Shown here one piece after another: positions 44,262 to 61,801 of a stretch of 64,000 bases of DNA. The stretch is from Parabacteroides faecis (GTDB taxonomy: Bacteria > Bacteroidota > Bacteroidia > Bacteroidales > Tannerellaceae): contig NZ_BMPB01000004.1 of assembly GCF_014647375.1 (NCBI RefSeq), positions 124,001 to 188,000 on the forward strand. The letters run 5' to 3'. Made by a program: the position numbers and the translations under genes. The notes under the pieces were generated by a model, which saw only the letters and a list, made by a program, of their open reading frames with translations, was not told where the DNA came from and did no database searches. How positions within the stretch are numbered: the stretch's first letter is position 1; every line of letters starts with the position of its first letter.

Positions 44262-45878
44262 TTATTCAATGACTTTATACCAATCACTCTTCATCCAGAA
44301 TAGCGTTGTGTACCAGGAGTCTTCTTTACCATTCAGGAATGCATTCAAACTTTCCTGATTGTAATCTTTTTCGTCAGAAGTATATTCCAGGCGGTTCAGA
44401 GGAAGTGGGGTATCTGCAGTCTGAGGATCTCTCTTGAAATAGAGTTCCGGATATCCTGTACGGCGTACAACATTCCAGGCTTCCAGTTCCTGAATAGCTC
44501 CGTGATGAATCCATCGTTGTGTCAGGATTGATTTTAACGGATTACTAGCATCCCACTGTGATTCAGCATAGGCTTCGACTGTAGCGTCATCTGGTGCCGG
44601 CAGTGCTGTACGGTATGTACCGGTTGAATTCAGGTTGAAATAAAACTCAGTAGATAATTTAACACCGTCTATATAAGCCGCTTTGGCATCACCGCTGGCC
44701 CAGTTGTTGGCATAGGCTTCCGCTTTCATAAAGGCTACTTCGGCAGCTGTCATCCAGATACCTGGGAAACCCGGGTTACGTGTGAAAGTTGAGGTATCCA
44801 ACGCAGCATAATATTTAGCTGTACCATGTGTACTGATAGCCATATTTGCTTCCTGATCTGCTGCGCTTTCCGTAGGGTCCAGACCGATATACTGGTTATC
44901 CCAGTTTGCGTCATATAATACTTCCAGACGTGGATCCGGATTATCGGTATTTGCATTTAATGCCCGTTGCATGAAACCGGACATACGGTTATATGTCGAG
45001 TTTTCAATAGCGTCTTGCAGATCTTTATCGAAATTGAAAGCATCATCGCTTTGTGCTACCGTTGTGTTTTCTGCATTCGTGTCTACCATCGGGTAAGTGG
45101 AAGGATTACTAAGCATGGTTTGGATAGCACTGCGTGCTTCTGATGTCAGGTCACCGTTTGAAGCCAAATGAGTGGCGACGCGAAGACGCAGAGAATTGAC
45201 ATATCTCTGCCACATGGATACATCTCCTTTGTTTACATAGTCTTCTGCTGTCATGTAGGTGGCTGCAGAAGAGCTTAATGACGGATGATTGTTCAGGTAT
45301 GTATTTGTTTCATCCAGATCTTTTAAGATCATGCTATACAGTTCCGTTTCAGAATCGTATTTAGGTTTGGACGAAACAATATCCCCGGTACTCCATAGGT
45401 ATCCGGCTTCCGAGAAAGGCAGGCTTCCCCATAAAGACAATACTTCATATAGTTGTTCTTCCAGAACAGTGCGTCCCAAATGAAGGAAAATTTCGTTATC
45501 TTCTTTTTCTTTATCTGTCAGATTATTGTAAGTCTGTTCCAGTAACCTGTATTGGGCAAGTGTTGTATAGAAATTTTTCCATCTTTCGTTGAAATAAGTT
45601 GTTCCCGCACCGGTGAAACGACCTTTGTCGTTGGTGTGTCCGATTACCCCGGAAAAGCGGCCGGAAGTAGTCGAAGATACATAATATCTGTAATATACTG
45701 GATTCATCCAGGTATTACAAGCCTGCCAAAGTCCTACCATTACCCCAGGACATGTCACAGACTGTGCCTGTTCCGGATTTTGATATTGATCCGAAAATTT
45801 ATCGTCGCTGCATGAGAAGGTGGATAATAGTGCCGCACATCCCAATACAAGTGAATATATTTGTTTCATTTTCTGCAT
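44262..45878 (-). CDS. SusD/RagB-like lipoprotein (SusD-like_2 type), phase-variable locus
   Basis: 538-residue lipoprotein: signal peptide ending at STFSC, followed by SDDKFSDQYQNPEQAQSVTCPG. The internal features (LLEQTYNNLTDKEKEDNEIF, YVNKGDVSMWQRYVNSLRLR, FMKAEAYANNWASGDAKAAYIDGV and a C-terminal ILTQRWIHHGAIQELEAWNVVRRTGYPELYF) fit the SusD-like_2 group, whose ligands are often not simple starch-like glycans. Two ATGs (45878 and 45869) are equally possible. It follows its SusC by 25 bases. No hydrolase or regulator gene accompanies the pair. Confidence 0.9.
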   Translation of the reverse strand: MQKMKQIYSLVLGCAALLSTFSCSDDKFSDQYQNPEQAQSVTCPGVMVGLWQACNTWMNPVYYRYYVSSTTSGRFSGVIGHTNDKGRFTGAGTTYFNERWKNFYTTLAQYRLLEQTYNNLTDKEKEDNEIFLHLGRTVLEEQLYEVLSLWGSLPFSEAGYLWSTGDIVSSKPKYDSETELYSMILKDLDETNTYLNNHPSLSSSAATYMTAEDYVNKGDVSMWQRYVNSLRLRVATHLASNGDLTSEARSAIQTMLSNPSTYPMVDTNAENTTVAQSDDAFNFDKDLQDAIENSTYNRMSGFMQRALNANTDNPDPRLEVLYDANWDNQYIGLDPTESAADQEANMAISTHGTAKYYAALDTSTFTRNPGFPGIWMTAAEVAFMKAEAYANNWASGDAKAAYIDGVKLSTEFYFNLNSTGTYRTALPAPDDATVEAYAESQWDASNPLKSILTQRWIHHGAIQELEAWNVVRRTGYPELYFKRDPQTADTPLPLNRLEYTSDEKDYNQESLNAFLNGKEDSWYTTLFWMKSDWYKVIE

Positions 45879-45903
45879 TCTTTATATATTTCTTTACAAT
45901 CAA

Positions 45904-48900
45904 TTAAAAACTAGCACGTAGTGAGAAACCAAAGGAGCGGGTTGTTGCTGTAGATCCGCTGATATAAGATTGGTTCACCCAGTTTGTACCATCCGTTGAT
46001 TCCGGATCCATTTCTTTCAAACTCTTGTAGAAGTAGAATAAGTTACGTCCGTAAACAGAAACCATTAGATTTTTACAACCAAATTTGGCAACCAGTTCTT
46101 TCGGCAGGCTGTAACCTATGCTTAATTCGCGCAGTTTGAAATAGGTGTTTTCCTGGATAGCGTTTTCGTAGGTGACATTACCTGAGTATCCCCAGCCGTA
46201 TTGGTTGTAAAATGTTTCACCTGCTGTCGCGATGATATCGTTCGGAGTTCCGTCCTCTTTTACACCGGGTAGGATTACACCATTGTCATATACTGTACAG
46301 CCGTTTACGGTAGAACCGGCTGCCTGGTCTGTCAGGTGGCGTATGGAAGGATCGGATAATACGTTGCCATCGGCATACCAGCTCAAACCGCCATGAGAGG
46401 CGTCACGACCTTGCAGTGTATGTTCCAATGTTCCGATTTCAGACATGTATTGATAGGGCTTGTTCATTACGTCACCACCAATACGGAAGTCGATAGAAGC
46501 ATCCAGATACCAGTTCTTGTAGCTGACAGATGTACTCAGACCGCCGACCAGTTTCGGCATGGCATTGCCTGCTTTTACGCGTTGTGTGTAATCAACTTTG
46601 TATAAACCGTTTTCATCAACAATTTTATTGCCGTTTTCATCTGTTACAGTTTTATATACATACCAGTCGCCCATTGCTTCTCCGACATGTGATTCCAGTA
46701 CAGCTGCTCCGTTGTCGATGGTTGTATGTTCAAGTCTGTCAACGCCATCTGTTAACTTCACGACCTTATTACGGTTCCAGGCCCAGTTGGCGCGGATATC
46801 CCAGGTCCAGTCTTTAGTCTGGATCGGCGTACCGTAAATAGACATTTCCAAACCTTGGTTCTTCAACTCACCCACGTTCATCCAGATGGAAGTACCTCCC
46901 GAAGAAGCAGCTGTTGAGGTATTCAGAATTTGGTCTTTTATTTTGTTATGATAGAAAGACAATTCAAATCCTAAGCGGTTTTGTAGAAACTTGTTTTCCC
47001 ATCCCAGTTCGAATTCGTATTTCTTTTCCGGCTGTAACTCGTTGTTTCCCAGTTCGCTTAATGAAATCTGATTATAAATATAGCTGTCTGCAGCATCTTG
47101 TTTATATCCGGTTGTTGCTTTATAGACAATTGGAGCATTACCTACGATACCGTAGCTTACACGAATTTTACCATAGTCATACCAACTTGGGTTCTTATCT
47201 TTCAATAATGAAGTATAGATTACACTACCATTGACAGAAGGATAGAAGAAAGAGTTGTTGCCTGGAGCCAAGGTGGATGTTTTTTCCTGACGTATAGTTC
47301 CTTCCAGATAAGCCCAACTATCGTAACCAAACGAAGCGGTAGCGAAATATGCTGTTTTCAGCAATGACATTTTTGTCATACTGGGGGTAGCGGGAGATAA
47401 AGCGGAAGCATTCAAATGGAACCAGTTTTCCACGCTTAATCCACCACGGGTAGTGACAGAGGTCATCATCTGACGTTCCTGGCGGCCTGACCAGCCGACG
47501 TTGGCTGTAATATTGTACTTCTCTGCGAATGTACGGTCAAACATCAACATGATATCACCGTAGTAAATTTCATACTTGTCGTTTTTCAGAGAATAACTAC
47601 CTGTATAGTTACCTGCCGTTGCCAATGCATTCGGATATTCTGTGTGGTTCTTATTCTCTTCTTCGTCAAATGTTAAGTCGGTAGACAAACGTCCCCGGGC
47701 GGTCAATCCAGGTATGATTTCCCAACTGGGAGAAACACTGGCAATAAAACGATTGTTGTTTTCGTATTGTTCCTTGCCGTAGATGTTCCATAAATAACGG
47801 TCGCCTATGTAACTGAAAGATGGGTCATATTCCCATGCTTCATCCAGGAATGTAGCAGCATATTCAGAGGTGTATGCTCTGTTCATGTAGCCCTGGCTGG
47901 TTACGATCCTGTTTTTCAAAGATGCGATATCGTCATAGCCGGTAAACATACCGTTATAACTACTCATCAACTGGTCGATACGATAGGTACGGTTCTTTAC
48001 GTATTGACGCATATAATTAGCAGAATAATCAAGTTTTATTCCTTTCAGGATATTCTGAGAACCTGTTAATGAGAAATTGTGTTTGTTGTTATGAGAGTTT
48101 AACTGAGTCGGTGTAACATCTGTATAGGTATAAGAAAAACGCATATTGCCTTTTTCCGTACCGTTTGTAACAGCGAGGTTATATGTTTGATTGATACCTG
48201 TCTGGAAAAGATCGTTCCATTGGTTATGATCGATGGGGGAATAAGTTCGTATTGTTCCATCCCAGTTATATAATTGGGAGGTATTGTCGTACTTGGGTCC
48301 CCATGAATAATATGTATTACGTAAGCTGGTAACCGGGTTGCCGTTTCTGTCAGTACGCGTGTTTTGGAAACCGGTAGCCTTTTCAAAATCATTACCTCTT
48401 GTGTCAAGCAGAGAGTTGTCATAACCCGGTCCGAATTCTTTCTGAATATTGGGCATATAGGCTACTTTGTCAAAACTAACGTTTGCACTGAAATCTACTC
48501 CTAAGCCGGAAGCTCCTTTACCGCTTTTAGTTGTAATCATAACAACTCCATTAGCGGCCTCAGAACCATACAAAGCAGAAGCTGCTGCACCTTTCAGGAT
48601 AGAGATATTTTCAATATCGGCAGGGTTGATGTCTACTAAACCATTTGATTCGACACGCTGTTGGCTCCAGTAGTCTTTATTGTTGGCATCCCCGTTGTGA
48701 ATGGGAACACCATCCATTACGATTAACGGCTGTGTAGAACCGGAAATAGATGATAAGCCGCGGACAGAGATAGATACAGACGATGTACCTCCACCGGGAG
48801 CTGCATTGATACGTACACCGGACGCTTTACCATACAATGAAGTGGCGAAATCAGGAGTACCGGTTTTTACGAGTTCTCCTGCCTCAATTGTACTTACAGC

Positions 48901-49311
48901 GTAACCCAGTTTTTTTGCATCTTTCTTGATACCCATAGCTGTTACAACTACTTCGTCCAGTTTTTGGGTGTCTTCAACTAATTTAATATTCAAAGAGGCT
49001 TGACCTGTGTAAGCGATTTCCTGGGTCGCATATCCGATAAAGGAAATCTGGATAACGTCTCCGTTTTTGACTCCTTCCAAGATGAAGTTACCATCCATGT
49101 CGGTAATATTACCATTGGTGGTTCCTTTAATAACAACTGATGCTCCGGCAACAGGGCCGAAATCATCTTCTACAACACCCGTCACTTTTCCGTTTTGTTG
49201 GGAAATGGCGGTTTCTAGCTTCTCTGGCGCTAAATCAGCGTATACGCTGGCTGGTAGTGCCATAGCTCCTGCGGCAAGGAGTAAGCTGACTTGTTTGAAG
49301 TGTTTCAACAT
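45904..49311 (-). CDS. SusC/RagA-like TonB-dependent receptor without STN domain, phase-variable locus
   Basis: 1135-residue outer-membrane importer. Signal peptide MLKHFKQVSLLLAAGAMALP to VYA, then directly a CarboxypepD-like domain (about 38-115, KVTGVVEDDFGPVAGASVVI), TonB-box-like DEVVVTAMGIKK, a plug (DIENISILKGAAASALYGSEA) and a barrel ending TRSFGFSLRASF. The absence of STN agrees with the absence of a sigma/FecR pair. Control may instead come from DNA inversion: the upstream region is bounded by an 18-bp inverted repeat and its only consensus promoter box points away from this gene. Confidence 0.94.
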   Translation of the reverse strand: MLKHFKQVSLLLAAGAMALPASVYADLAPEKLETAISQQNGKVTGVVEDDFGPVAGASVVIKGTTNGNITDMDGNFILEGVKNGDVIQISFIGYATQEIAYTGQASLNIKLVEDTQKLDEVVVTAMGIKKDAKKLGYAVSTIEAGELVKTGTPDFATSLYGKASGVRINAAPGGGTSSVSISVRGLSSISGSTQPLIVMDGVPIHNGDANNKDYWSQQRVESNGLVDINPADIENISILKGAAASALYGSEAANGVVMITTKSGKGASGLGVDFSANVSFDKVAYMPNIQKEFGPGYDNSLLDTRGNDFEKATGFQNTRTDRNGNPVTSLRNTYYSWGPKYDNTSQLYNWDGTIRTYSPIDHNQWNDLFQTGINQTYNLAVTNGTEKGNMRFSYTYTDVTPTQLNSHNNKHNFSLTGSQNILKGIKLDYSANYMRQYVKNRTYRIDQLMSSYNGMFTGYDDIASLKNRIVTSQGYMNRAYTSEYAATFLDEAWEYDPSFSYIGDRYLWNIYGKEQYENNNRFIASVSPSWEIIPGLTARGRLSTDLTFDEEENKNHTEYPNALATAGNYTGSYSLKNDKYEIYYGDIMLMFDRTFAEKYNITANVGWSGRQERQMMTSVTTRGGLSVENWFHLNASALSPATPSMTKMSLLKTAYFATASFGYDSWAYLEGTIRQEKTSTLAPGNNSFFYPSVNGSVIYTSLLKDKNPSWYDYGKIRVSYGIVGNAPIVYKATTGYKQDAADSYIYNQISLSELGNNELQPEKKYEFELGWENKFLQNRLGFELSFYHNKIKDQILNTSTAASSGGTSIWMNVGELKNQGLEMSIYGTPIQTKDWTWDIRANWAWNRNKVVKLTDGVDRLEHTTIDNGAAVLESHVGEAMGDWYVYKTVTDENGNKIVDENGLYKVDYTQRVKAGNAMPKLVGGLSTSVSYKNWYLDASIDFRIGGDVMNKPYQYMSEIGTLEHTLQGRDASHGGLSWYADGNVLSDPSIRHLTDQAAGSTVNGCTVYDNGVILPGVKEDGTPNDIIATAGETFYNQYGWGYSGNVTYENAIQENTYFKLRELSIGYSLPKELVAKFGCKNLMVSVYGRNLFYFYKSLKEMDPESTDGTNWVNQSYISGSTATTRSFGFSLRASF

Positions 49312-49386
49312 AATAAATGATGTTATTGATGATAATACTAGTGTTAGTAAAGGTTCTTTAGATTTTGACGTTTATCGATCTTTGAT

Positions 49387-49404
49387 CTTAGTTCTGAAAG
49401 AACT
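49387..49404 (+). repeat. Left inverted repeat of a proposed invertible promoter
   Basis: CTTAGTTCTGAAAGAACT, the exact reverse complement of 49768-49785. The core AGTTCT-GAA-AGAACT is itself dyad-symmetric with an asymmetric centre, like a site-specific recombinase crossover site. It lies 75 bases before the susC start. Confidence 0.85.
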
Positions 49405-49740
49405 TTGTCTATTGTAATGTTTGTGGGCTTTGATAAATATGGTTTTTGCTTCTTTTTAAAAAAGATAAGAAACTATAAATCAGATAAGAGTCATGGTTTA
49501 TGGCTCGGAATAGCTTAAAGTGTCTGGTTAATAAATATTGTGTAAAATAGTATTGAGGAAATTTCTTTGAATCGGCTATGTCATATTATGCTTGAAATAT
49601 ACAATATGAATAAATTCATAAGATGTAATTTGCTACTGGATTGACTTGAATTAATTTTCTTATTTTTATCGACAATGTTAAAAACGATGTATTATATGAT
49701 TAAAATTGACGTAAAATAACAATATGAAATAAAAAAGCTA

Positions 49741-49748
49741 TACATTTG
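49741..49748 (+). promoter_or_regulatory. Promoter -7 box inside the proposed invertible segment
   Basis: TACATTTG matches TAnnTTTG, reading rightward, away from susC, with a start predicted about 12 bases inside the right repeat. No minus-strand TAnnTTTG occurs between 49312 and 49785. Inversion would place this box toward susC with a leader of roughly 105 bases. Confidence 0.6.
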
Positions 49749-49767
49749 TAGCGAGTATTAAGTATTG

Positions 49768-49785
49768 AGTTCTTTCAGAACTAAG
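49768..49785 (-). repeat. Right inverted repeat of a proposed invertible promoter
   Basis: AGTTCTTTCAGAACTAAG, the exact reverse complement of the left copy; the two are separated by 363 bases. Confidence 0.85.
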
Positions 49786-59903: not shown

Positions 59904-59934
59904 CTGCGTAAGAAAGTGATCGAAATACTTGGAA

Positions 59935-59961
59935 GGACTTAGTTCTAGAAGAACTAAGTCC
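59935..59961. repeat. Perfect 27-base palindrome (recombination site or attenuator), left site
   Basis: Twelve-base arms GGACTTAGTTCT and AGAACTAAGTCC around AGA, followed by TTTT. Its core AGTTCT-N3-AGAACT equals that of the sites at 49387 and 49768, and TTAGTTCTAGAAGAACT (59939-59955) is the exact reverse complement of 60082-60098. The T tail also makes it terminator-like. Confidence 0.75.
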
Positions 59962-60081
59962 TTTTCCATTCTCTTATCTTATATAAATCAATATCCCTCT
60001 ATTTTTTATACAAAAAGTAACAGAAGTATTCCTGCTTGGAACTTCCTGATATTTATGTGAATAATACAATAACTATTCCTC

Positions 60082-60098
60082 AGTTCTTCTAGAACTAA
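60082..60098 (-). repeat. Right inverted repeat partner of 59939-59955
   Basis: AGTTCTTCTAGAACTAA, 17 bases exactly complementary in reverse to the left site, 31 bases before the sigma-factor start. Confidence 0.8.
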
Positions 60099-60129: not shown

Positions 60130-60708
60130 ATGAATACAAACCATATAAATGAAGAGATCATAAAACAGATCAGAAATGGTTCTGAAAAGGCTTTTTCTGA
60201 GTTATATTGCTACTATTATAGTTACCTGAATGCAATTGCCCTATATTACTTACTGGACAAAGATCTTTGTTCTGAAATTGTAGATGATGTATTTATAAAT
60301 GTCTGGTTTAAAAGGGATACCTTAGCGTATCCAATTCATTATTATTTAGTTCGTTCCGTACAGAATGGATGTCTTAATCACATTCGTTCACAGAGAAGCC
60401 AGCAGAATATGCTGGATATTCACAAAGATCAGTTACTGGCTCATCAGGAATCTTATATTCAATCGACTCCCGCCCCTTTACAGTACGTGGAAATGCGACA
60501 GACCGAAGAGGAGATCCGTTTGGCTGTGAATCAATTACCTCTAAAATGTCGGAAAGTTTTTGAAGAATATTTTTATGCCGGAAAGGCTGCTGATGTAATT
60601 GCAGAGGATATGGGACTGACTGTTAGTACAGTACGTGTTCAGCTCAAAAATGCGACCGACCGTTTGAAGCAAGCCCTTAAACATCTTCTTCTCTTTTTTA
60701 TTTACTAA
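60130..60708 (+). CDS. ECF RNA polymerase sigma factor, locus 3
   Basis: 192-residue FecI-like sigma factor. Region 2 at about residues 15-85 (AFSELYCYYYSYLNAIALYY, EIVDDVFINVWFKRD, YLVRSVQNGCLNHIRSQ) and region 4 at about 125-180 (LPLKCRKVFEEYFYAGKAADVIAEDMGLTVSTVRVQLKNATDRL). Hydrophobic C-terminal tail HLLLFFIY. FecR follows after 97 bases. The inverted repeats directly upstream may put this regulator under phase or attenuation control. Confidence 0.9.
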   Translation: MNTNHINEEIIKQIRNGSEKAFSELYCYYYSYLNAIALYYLLDKDLCSEIVDDVFINVWFKRDTLAYPIHYYLVRSVQNGCLNHIRSQRSQQNMLDIHKDQLLAHQESYIQSTPAPLQYVEMRQTEEEIRLAVNQLPLKCRKVFEEYFYAGKAADVIAEDMGLTVSTVRVQLKNATDRLKQALKHLLLFFIY

Positions 60709-60805: not shown

Positions 60806-61801
60806 ATGCAAGATAAAAATATACTATTTGAGGAATTAATGGATAAATATATTTCGGGCTCGATAACAGACGGAGAAAAGATCTCTTTGTTTGCTTTAAT
60901 AGAAGAGTCGGATTTATATCGGAAACAATACCATGAGATGGTCAAGCTGTATGCTTTGCTCCATATTCCTGCTTTTGAATCCCGGAAAGAGACCGGATAT
61001 GTCCATCTGAAAGAAAGATTGCATTTGACAACCTTGGGAATATCCCGGCGTAGGTGGTTCGTTTATGCCCGGAATATTGCTGCTGTCCTTTTATTAATGG
61101 TAACTGTATCTGTCGGTTCGATTTTTACATATAATGAGTTGGATAAATCGGGTGACCAGTTATATAATGAGACAACGGTCCCTTTGGGTTCACAAACAAA
61201 AGTTCTTTTACCGGATGGTTCCACAGTAGTCCTAAACTCCGGTTCCGTGTTAAAGTATCCGTTATCTTATGGAAAAAAAGAACGAAATGTATATCTGGTG
61301 GGAGAAGGATATTTTGAGGTGGCAAAAGATAAAGAAAAAGCATTTCAGGTATATGCCGGGGATATGACGGTGAAAGTTACAGGTACGGAATTTAATCTCC
61401 GTTACTATCTGGAAGACCAATCGACAGAAGTATCTCTGATCGATGGAGGAGTCGATGTCTTTGCCAATAATAAGTATGTTCGTTTGAAACCGGATGAGAA
61501 AGCTATTTACAACCGCAATACCGGAGACTTGTACAGCGAGACCGCCGATTCCTATAAATCAGCATTGTGGACGACGGGCAGATTGAGTTTTGTGAATGCA
61601 TCTTTCCTGGATATATTGAAGGATATAGAACGGAAATACAATATAAAGATCCATGTGGATAGCCAAAAAGTGACGAATGAATATTTTTCAGGAAGTATCG
61701 ATCTGAATATGTCGCTTCAGGAGGTGTTTAATTTTATAGATGTGGACAAGAAGTATCGTTTTGAACAGAGTGGAGGTGTCATCACATTAAGAGATAAATA
61801 A
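60806..61801 (+). CDS. FecR-family anti-sigma factor, locus 3
   Basis: 331-residue inner-membrane anti-sigma factor. N-terminal sigma-binding part (FEELMDKYISGSITDGEKIS), a membrane helix near 90-110 (NIAAVLLLMVTVSVGSIFTY), a FecR domain at about 125-215 (TKVLLPDGSTVVLNSGSVLK, YLVGEGYFEVAKDKEKAFQV, VTGTEFNLRYY) and a C-terminal DUF4974-like domain (SFVNASFLDILKDIERKYNI). Confidence 0.9.
   Translation: MQDKNILFEELMDKYISGSITDGEKISLFALIEESDLYRKQYHEMVKLYALLHIPAFESRKETGYVHLKERLHLTTLGISRRRWFVYARNIAAVLLLMVTVSVGSIFTYNELDKSGDQLYNETTVPLGSQTKVLLPDGSTVVLNSGSVLKYPLSYGKKERNVYLVGEGYFEVAKDKEKAFQVYAGDMTVKVTGTEFNLRYYLEDQSTEVSLIDGGVDVFANNKYVRLKPDEKAIYNRNTGDLYSETADSYKSALWTTGRLSFVNASFLDILKDIERKYNIKIHVDSQKVTNEYFSGSIDLNMSLQEVFNFIDVDKKYRFEQSGGVITLRDK

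Follow-up and report, generated by a model that had tools for sequence, protein, structure and literature searches.

A probable invertible promoter upstream of a SusC/SusD operon in Parabacteroides faecis and a genome-wide set of similar switches

In the 64,000-nt stretch of the Parabacteroides faecis genome analysed here (the window; assembly GCF_014647375.1, contig NZ_BMPB01000004.1, positions 124,001 to 188,000), the region 49387-49785, directly upstream of a susC/susD operon, is very probably an invertible promoter. A preliminary description made from the letters of the window had proposed this reading, and it gains support from related segments that lie in opposite orientations in relatives and from a promoter geometry that recurs in 16 of 23 site pairs; judged from these sequences, the switch is one of about twenty similar ones in the same genome. 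Invertible promoters of this kind are already known in related gut bacteria, both from the Tsr0667 regulon and from surveys of promoter-bearing invertons in Bacteroidota, and the locus is a new member of the kind. The switch would put a Parabacteroides nutrient importer under heritable ON/OFF control and makes that importer part of a set, spread over the genome, that has its site and a fixed promoter geometry in common and for which a candidate recombinase exists.

The local architecture is largely as first described. The two 18-nt repeats are 100% complementary and 363 nt apart, their cores share the dyad AGTTCT-N3-AGAACT with the centres GAA and TTC, and the 1.5 kb searched gave one other reported inverted repeat, a 75% overlapping palindrome. 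The box consensus TANNTTTGY is given in PMC8748976. On rechecking its position, the lone TAnnTTTG box of the segment was again found to be directed away from susC, with none directed at susC in 49312-49785. The estimate that inversion would bring the box to about 105 bases from the susC start needed correction: flipping the segment in silico puts TACATTTG at 49424-49431, its end 112 nt before the ATG. The element thus has inverted repeats flanking a short intergenic segment and, by the -7 box match, a box inside it that reaches susC in one orientation only, both as expected of an invertible promoter in Bacteroidota. We propose that a tyrosine recombinase whose gene lies elsewhere in the genome would pair the two sites; the spacers GAA and TTC match in inverted alignment only, so that the 363-nt segment would flip. 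In the assembled orientation, TACATTTG would fire away from susC, towards the end of a convergent NUDIX gene, leaving susC/susD without this promoter; after inversion in this strain, it would fire into susC across the proximal site and the 75-nt leader. By the direction of the box, the switch is probably OFF as assembled.

Table 1. Coordinates of the two predicted switches, their neighbouring genes and the candidate recombinase (positions in the window unless a genome contig is named)
Feature	Position	Strand	Details
susC-proximal putative recombination site (IRL)	49387-49404		core 49390-49404, AGTTCT-GAA-AGAACT
Distal putative recombination site (IRR)	49768-49785		core 49768-49782, AGTTCT-TTC-AGAACT
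Predicted invertible segment, 363 nt	49405-49767		based on the repeats and the differing orientation of related segments in relatives
Putative -7 box TACATTTG, then T	49741-49748	+	sole TAnnTTTG of the segment, 19 nt inside the distal core, pointing away from susC
susC leader, proximal site to ATG, 75 nt	49312-49386	-	
susC, 1135 aa	45904-49311	-	TIGR04056, 617.7 bits; Plug, CarbopepD_reg_2
susD-like gene, 538 aa	44262-45878	-	PF12771/PF12741
Second switch, left site	59941-59955		AGTTCT-AGA-AGAACT
Second switch, right site	60082-60096		AGTTCT-TCT-AGAACT
Terminator-like hairpin	59931-59965	+	16 pairs counted, loop 3, tail CCATTCTCTT; overlaps the left site
TATATTTG box outside the segment	59896-59903	+	37 nt before the left site, directed at it and the sigma gene
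ECF-type sigma factor gene	60130-60708	+	
FecR-type anti-sigma gene	60806-61801	+	
Candidate tyrosine recombinase (L022), 397 aa	G000:C3:454683-455873		Arm-DNA-bind_5, Phage_int_SAM_5, Phage_integrase (Pfam)

The site class extends far beyond this locus. Across the 6.66 Mb and 33 contigs of the genome (G000), the exact motif AGTTCTNNNAGAACT (AGTTCT-N3-AGAACT) occurs 31 times and the reversed motif not once, which excludes chance. A relaxed search (AGTYCT/AGRACT, one mismatch) gave at least 128 sites against 117 for the control, so single relaxed matches are mostly due to chance. From stretches fetched around listed sites, a few of them fetched for a pair that was already visible, at least 23 pairs were collected, counting one of two overlapping pairs at L045; L085, L086 and L087 gave no pair under the rule. 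One of the pairs, at 59941-59955 and 60082-60096, lies in the window itself and is absent from the preliminary description. When neighbouring sites with at most one mismatch and 100-1500 nt apart were compared in these stretches, the N3 spacers were exactly complementary in 24 of 24 comparisons, a count in which the second window pair figures twice (L046 overlaps the window) and two comparisons come from L045; about 1 in 64 would be expected to match each time. Between pairs the spacers are diverse, with 15 types among the 23. Complementarity within pairs and diversity between them would follow if strand exchange by a tyrosine recombinase needs matching overlaps, and the spacer rule predicts which segments are able to flip and between which sites no cross-reaction is expected.

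The pairs also share a promoter geometry. An outward TAnnTTTG lies 14-21 nt inside one site in 16 of the 23 (the range was picked after the distances had been seen), and the same geometry arose on average 0.33 times, and at most three times, in 300 dinucleotide shuffles. Four of the 16 boxes point at a SusC or sigma gene (L042, L047, L052 and L056), 11 point away from the SusC-side gene, that of the window switch included, and one, at L045, is flanked by two divergent SusC genes and directed at one of them. Almost all pairs (22 of 23) stand before SusC, ECF-sigma or FecR genes or before a gene that is itself followed by one of them: SusC comes next in 12, an ECF sigma factor in six and FecR in one, an unassigned gene and then FecR or SusC follow in three, and the remaining pair (L055) has none of these. 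These calls were made by phmmer with the window proteins, and some of the scores are low (from 30 bits).

Related segments lie both ways round in other genomes. The 619-nt region matched eight of 39 genomes of the genus, P. faecis included. The gene order fucosidase-SusD/C-NUDIX-ROK is kept in G009; as far as they were fetched, the G038 stretch has SusD/C, NUDIX and ROK, and the G013 stretch these and part of the fucosidase. The segments of G013, G009, G038 and G014 align to that of the window in the window's orientation only, with scores of 90, 72, 70 and 34 (flipped, 16, 20, 18 and 19; shuffle maxima 24, 30, 24 and 24). The G021 segment, in turn, aligns to these four only when flipped, scoring 32, 29, 26 and 46; its same-orientation scores are 12-17 and the shuffle maxima 18-22 (22 for the best, G014). 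The G002 segment aligns to the window's own only when flipped (48, against 16 in the same orientation and a shuffle maximum of 25). In both G021 and G002 the box is directed at susC, the ON way. The SusC of G021 is 62% identical to that of the window, like those with the kept gene order (about 61%). Two segments before other SusC genes, L068 in G013 and L069 in G009, have the window's orientation (scores 37 and 36), and G022 holds a short 39-nt match (L065). Together, the alignments are strong evidence that the promoter module occurs both ways round.

Some observations weigh against an active invertible promoter at this locus. The window comes from one assembly with one orientation, and flipping in this strain is inferred from the comparison between species. 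No -33 element is evident by eye in the window switch, and seven of the 23 pairs have no box at 14-21 nt. The G021 segment does not resemble that of the window either way round (16/15, shuffle maximum 22), and the SusC of G002 is only 33% identical, so that what is compared there are promoter modules rather than orthologous loci. Beside the closest SusC paralog of this genome, the L049 segment shows no resemblance, in either orientation, to any other in the comparison. The single assembly would suit a relic, a formerly invertible segment now locked OFF with the recombinase no longer acting at this locus, and so would the OFF state of G013, G009 and G038, which keep the gene order, and the 11 of 16 boxed switches that point away from the SusC-side gene. 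We nevertheless consider a relic improbable: the two 18-nt repeats match exactly, the genome has an intact tyrosine recombinase whose position is conserved, and the spacer, GAA here and AAA in the relatives, has changed and yet still matches its partner, which implies a paired change. Still less probable, and in our view very unlikely, is that the repeats are the dyad operator sites of a regulator, or transcript hairpins, and take no part in recombination. Each site is itself a dyad, as would suit a dimeric regulator, and a terminator-like hairpin is centred on one site of the second window pair; operators, however, would need neither spacers that are complementary within every pair compared and differ between pairs nor related segments in opposite orientations.

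The preliminary description had suggested that a recombinase be sought elsewhere in the genome, and the search did yield a conserved candidate, whose action on these sites we infer. The search was for tyrosine recombinases and gave 23 PF00589 matches in the genome, 22 of which were set against 29 of the 89 places that G006, G012, G014 and G015 gave. The 397-aa enzyme L022 had good matches in all four; besides XerC/XerD, no other did so. L016 and L017 were rejected as the housekeeping enzymes XerD and XerC, which are their best NCBIfam models, and L032, L034 and L036 were set aside as master enzymes for want of close relatives in three site-bearing genomes and kept as rivals. The prediction that L022 relatives (at least 55% identity) co-occur with the sites was fixed before the test in 39 genomes of the genus: a full-length relative is present in 13 of the 14 genomes with at least four exact sites and in six of the 25 with fewer (Fisher p 4e-5, kinship ignored). 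Within the 15-20 kb fetched, a site pair accompanies six of 16 L022 ortholog loci and one of 16 control stretches from arbitrarily chosen places in the same genomes, and the reversed motif was found near none of the 16 ortholog loci. SusC genes are close to the ortholog in all five loci for which genes were listed (L181, L185, L186, L190 and L193). The order level (295 genomes at least 90% complete) added little: genomes outside the genus have at most three sites, which is also what the control gives, and only six genomes hold L022 relatives at E 1e-60, with 0 sites in G091 (55%) and G259 (48%). As a separate observation, the candidate recombinase in L181 (14133-15323) lies near a SusC reading frame whose end is only a few bases from that of contig C3, as would happen if the assembly had broken inside a rearranging SusC/SusD cluster.

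The assignment of L022 also has evidence against it. The full-length criterion was set after the data had been seen; at the predefined 55% identity the counts are 13/14 and 9/25 (p 0.0007), with fragments counted the site-poor genomes with a relative rise to 11/25 (p 0.005), and at 45% identity to 15/25 (p 0.06), kinship being ignored in each case. G022 has 10 sites and no close L022 relative (best 31%); G005, G018 and G026 have a full L022-type gene and no exact sites, and G004 has the gene and one exact site; by identity alone, G011, G028 and G030 break the prediction as well. In G004 and G005, variant pairs containing AGTTCA lie near the L022-type gene. The inversion could also be real and carried out by another enzyme, for instance one of the tyrosine recombinases of 305-327 aa (L032, L034-L037), which would challenge the choice of enzyme and leave the switch itself untouched. 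Smaller recombinases like L036 (at least 54% identity) occur in seven of the 14 site-rich and none of the 25 site-poor genomes, including G022, where a close L022 relative is missing. In three genomes with sites, G014 (14 sites), G015 (8) and G006 (6), relatives of L036, L034 or L032 reach at most about 40% identity, and full-length L022 relatives are present at 61-75% identity; we see the other-enzyme explanation as the less likely one, with a substantial chance left to it. For L022 as the enzyme of these switches, the link being circumstantial, we put the chances at about even or a little better. If L022 were the master, deleting this gene alone would lock a large part of the importer repertoire, and the role of the importers in colonisation and phage sensitivity would become measurable.

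Neither the site set nor a recombinase had been recognised when the switch was first described; the architecture now has a known counterpart and the enzyme a candidate, and it is the tie between enzyme and sites that stays circumstantial. The counterpart, Tsr0667, is reportedly a tyrosine recombinase with the site consensus AGTYYYN4GDACT, and the window site, written as AGTTCT-GAAA-GAACT, would fit this consensus. The Tsr0667 (BF0667) regulon of Bacteroides fragilis YCH46, as described in PMC4747536 and PMC11852207, matches the window switch in architecture. As in a regulon of that type, one site class serves many loci here, with 23 pairs of which 12 stand directly before SusC; the genus is different, and the targets include ECF-sigma/FecR/SusC operons. 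The invertible capsule promoters of B. fragilis, thrown by the single master enzyme Mpi, work alike, but Mpi is a serine recombinase (PMC4747536), and the dyad of the window site has an odd centre (N3), which would fit the overlap of a tyrosine recombinase better than the 2-bp overlap of a serine recombinase. PhaseFinder surveys describe Bacteroidota invertons as inverted repeats around promoters with the Bacteroides-type box (PMC11892184, PMC8748976), and promoter-bearing invertons were reported for Bacteroidota with a distasonis genome among them (PMC5903667); the accessible portions of these three papers do not name this locus or site class.

The second pair in the window appears to be a switch of another type. 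No TAnnTTTG lies inside its 126-nt segment, and a box stands outside it, the arrangement of the cwpV switch by box matches. The left site is the centre of a predicted hairpin (59925-59975, -22.4 kcal/mol, z -5.1), and its perfect dyad arm measures 14. Of the 46 sites in the 23 pairs, no other has an arm longer than 9, so that the hairpin goes beyond the site motif itself. The T tail is weak, since the preceding TTTT was counted within the stem and CCATTCTCTT follows, and the right site of L083 folds nearly as strongly on one strand (-22.1), via other pairs. Flipping the segment in silico leaves a nine-pair hairpin at the junction, and the best local fold is then predicted at -14.1 instead of -22.4 kcal/mol. 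The cwpV switch of Clostridioides difficile (PMC2784873) likewise has its promoter outside and no open reading frame (ORF) or promoter inside the segment, and an intrinsic terminator was proposed for its OFF orientation; it belongs to another phylum and has other sites, and inversion at 59941-60096 is a prediction. By this analogy the second switch resembles the cwpV arrangement, and it is the more novel lead of the two. No invertible terminator in Bacteroidota was met in a literature search of titles and abstract beginnings, and PMC11892184 names terminators near invertons as future work; a terminator-type switch, if true, would extend the C. difficile mechanism to Bacteroidota. A G009 pair with the spacer AGA was considered as an ortholog of the second switch and rejected, its sigma factor being only 30% identical. 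Taken as a whole, a system in which one conserved tyrosine recombinase runs at least 20 switches, each pair kept private by a 3-nt spacer "address", most gating SusC directly or via an ECF sigma factor and at least one (59941-60096) flipping a terminator, is possible, though we find it rather doubtful.

That the SusC/SusD operon lacks sigma, FecR and STN elements agrees with the domain matches and the neighbouring genes: no STN domain is among the Pfam matches of the window SusC, and no sigma or FecR gene adjoins the pair. On the far side of the segment from susC lie the NUDIX gene and a ROK gene. The leader and the susC start (49201-49383) are 82-84% identical in G013, G009 and G038. The window SusC/SusD (44262-49311) is 78%/74% identical to its paralogous pair at L049 (contig C10) and only about 61%/42% identical to the pairs at the corresponding place in relatives (L200, L202), whereas the flanking genes fetched there are 88-98% identical and the susC start is also conserved; the transporter body may have been exchanged downstream of the switch. 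At the same place in G013, the SusC reading frame (L203, 2781-6227) runs for 739 aa before a stop, although tblastn aligned the whole protein, owing either to an internal stop or to an extraction error. A SusC scan of genome contigs gave 13 loci (best 56% identity). Among plasmids, a single one, from P. distasonis, carries a related start of susC (71% over 15% of the query), and neither a box nor a site pair lies before it; viral contigs gave 0 matches for the ON junction and 0 for the OFF junction, which is uninformative.

Three further pairs differ from the common pattern. The segment at L055 (5031-6225; G000:C14:173430-174624) is 1195 nt long; its spacers match, it overlaps ORFs, and neither a SusC nor a sigma gene lies next to it. 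The switch at L045 (4584-5022; G000:C3:209683-210121) has a divergent SusC gene on each side and a third site at a distance of 51 nt, and one promoter could there choose between two transporters. The pair at L050 (5040-5610; G000:C10:57039-57609), beside divergent FecR/SusC systems, has 21 additional matching outer bases, overlaps a FecR-like ORF and has no box; it may exchange coding ends rather than flip a promoter.
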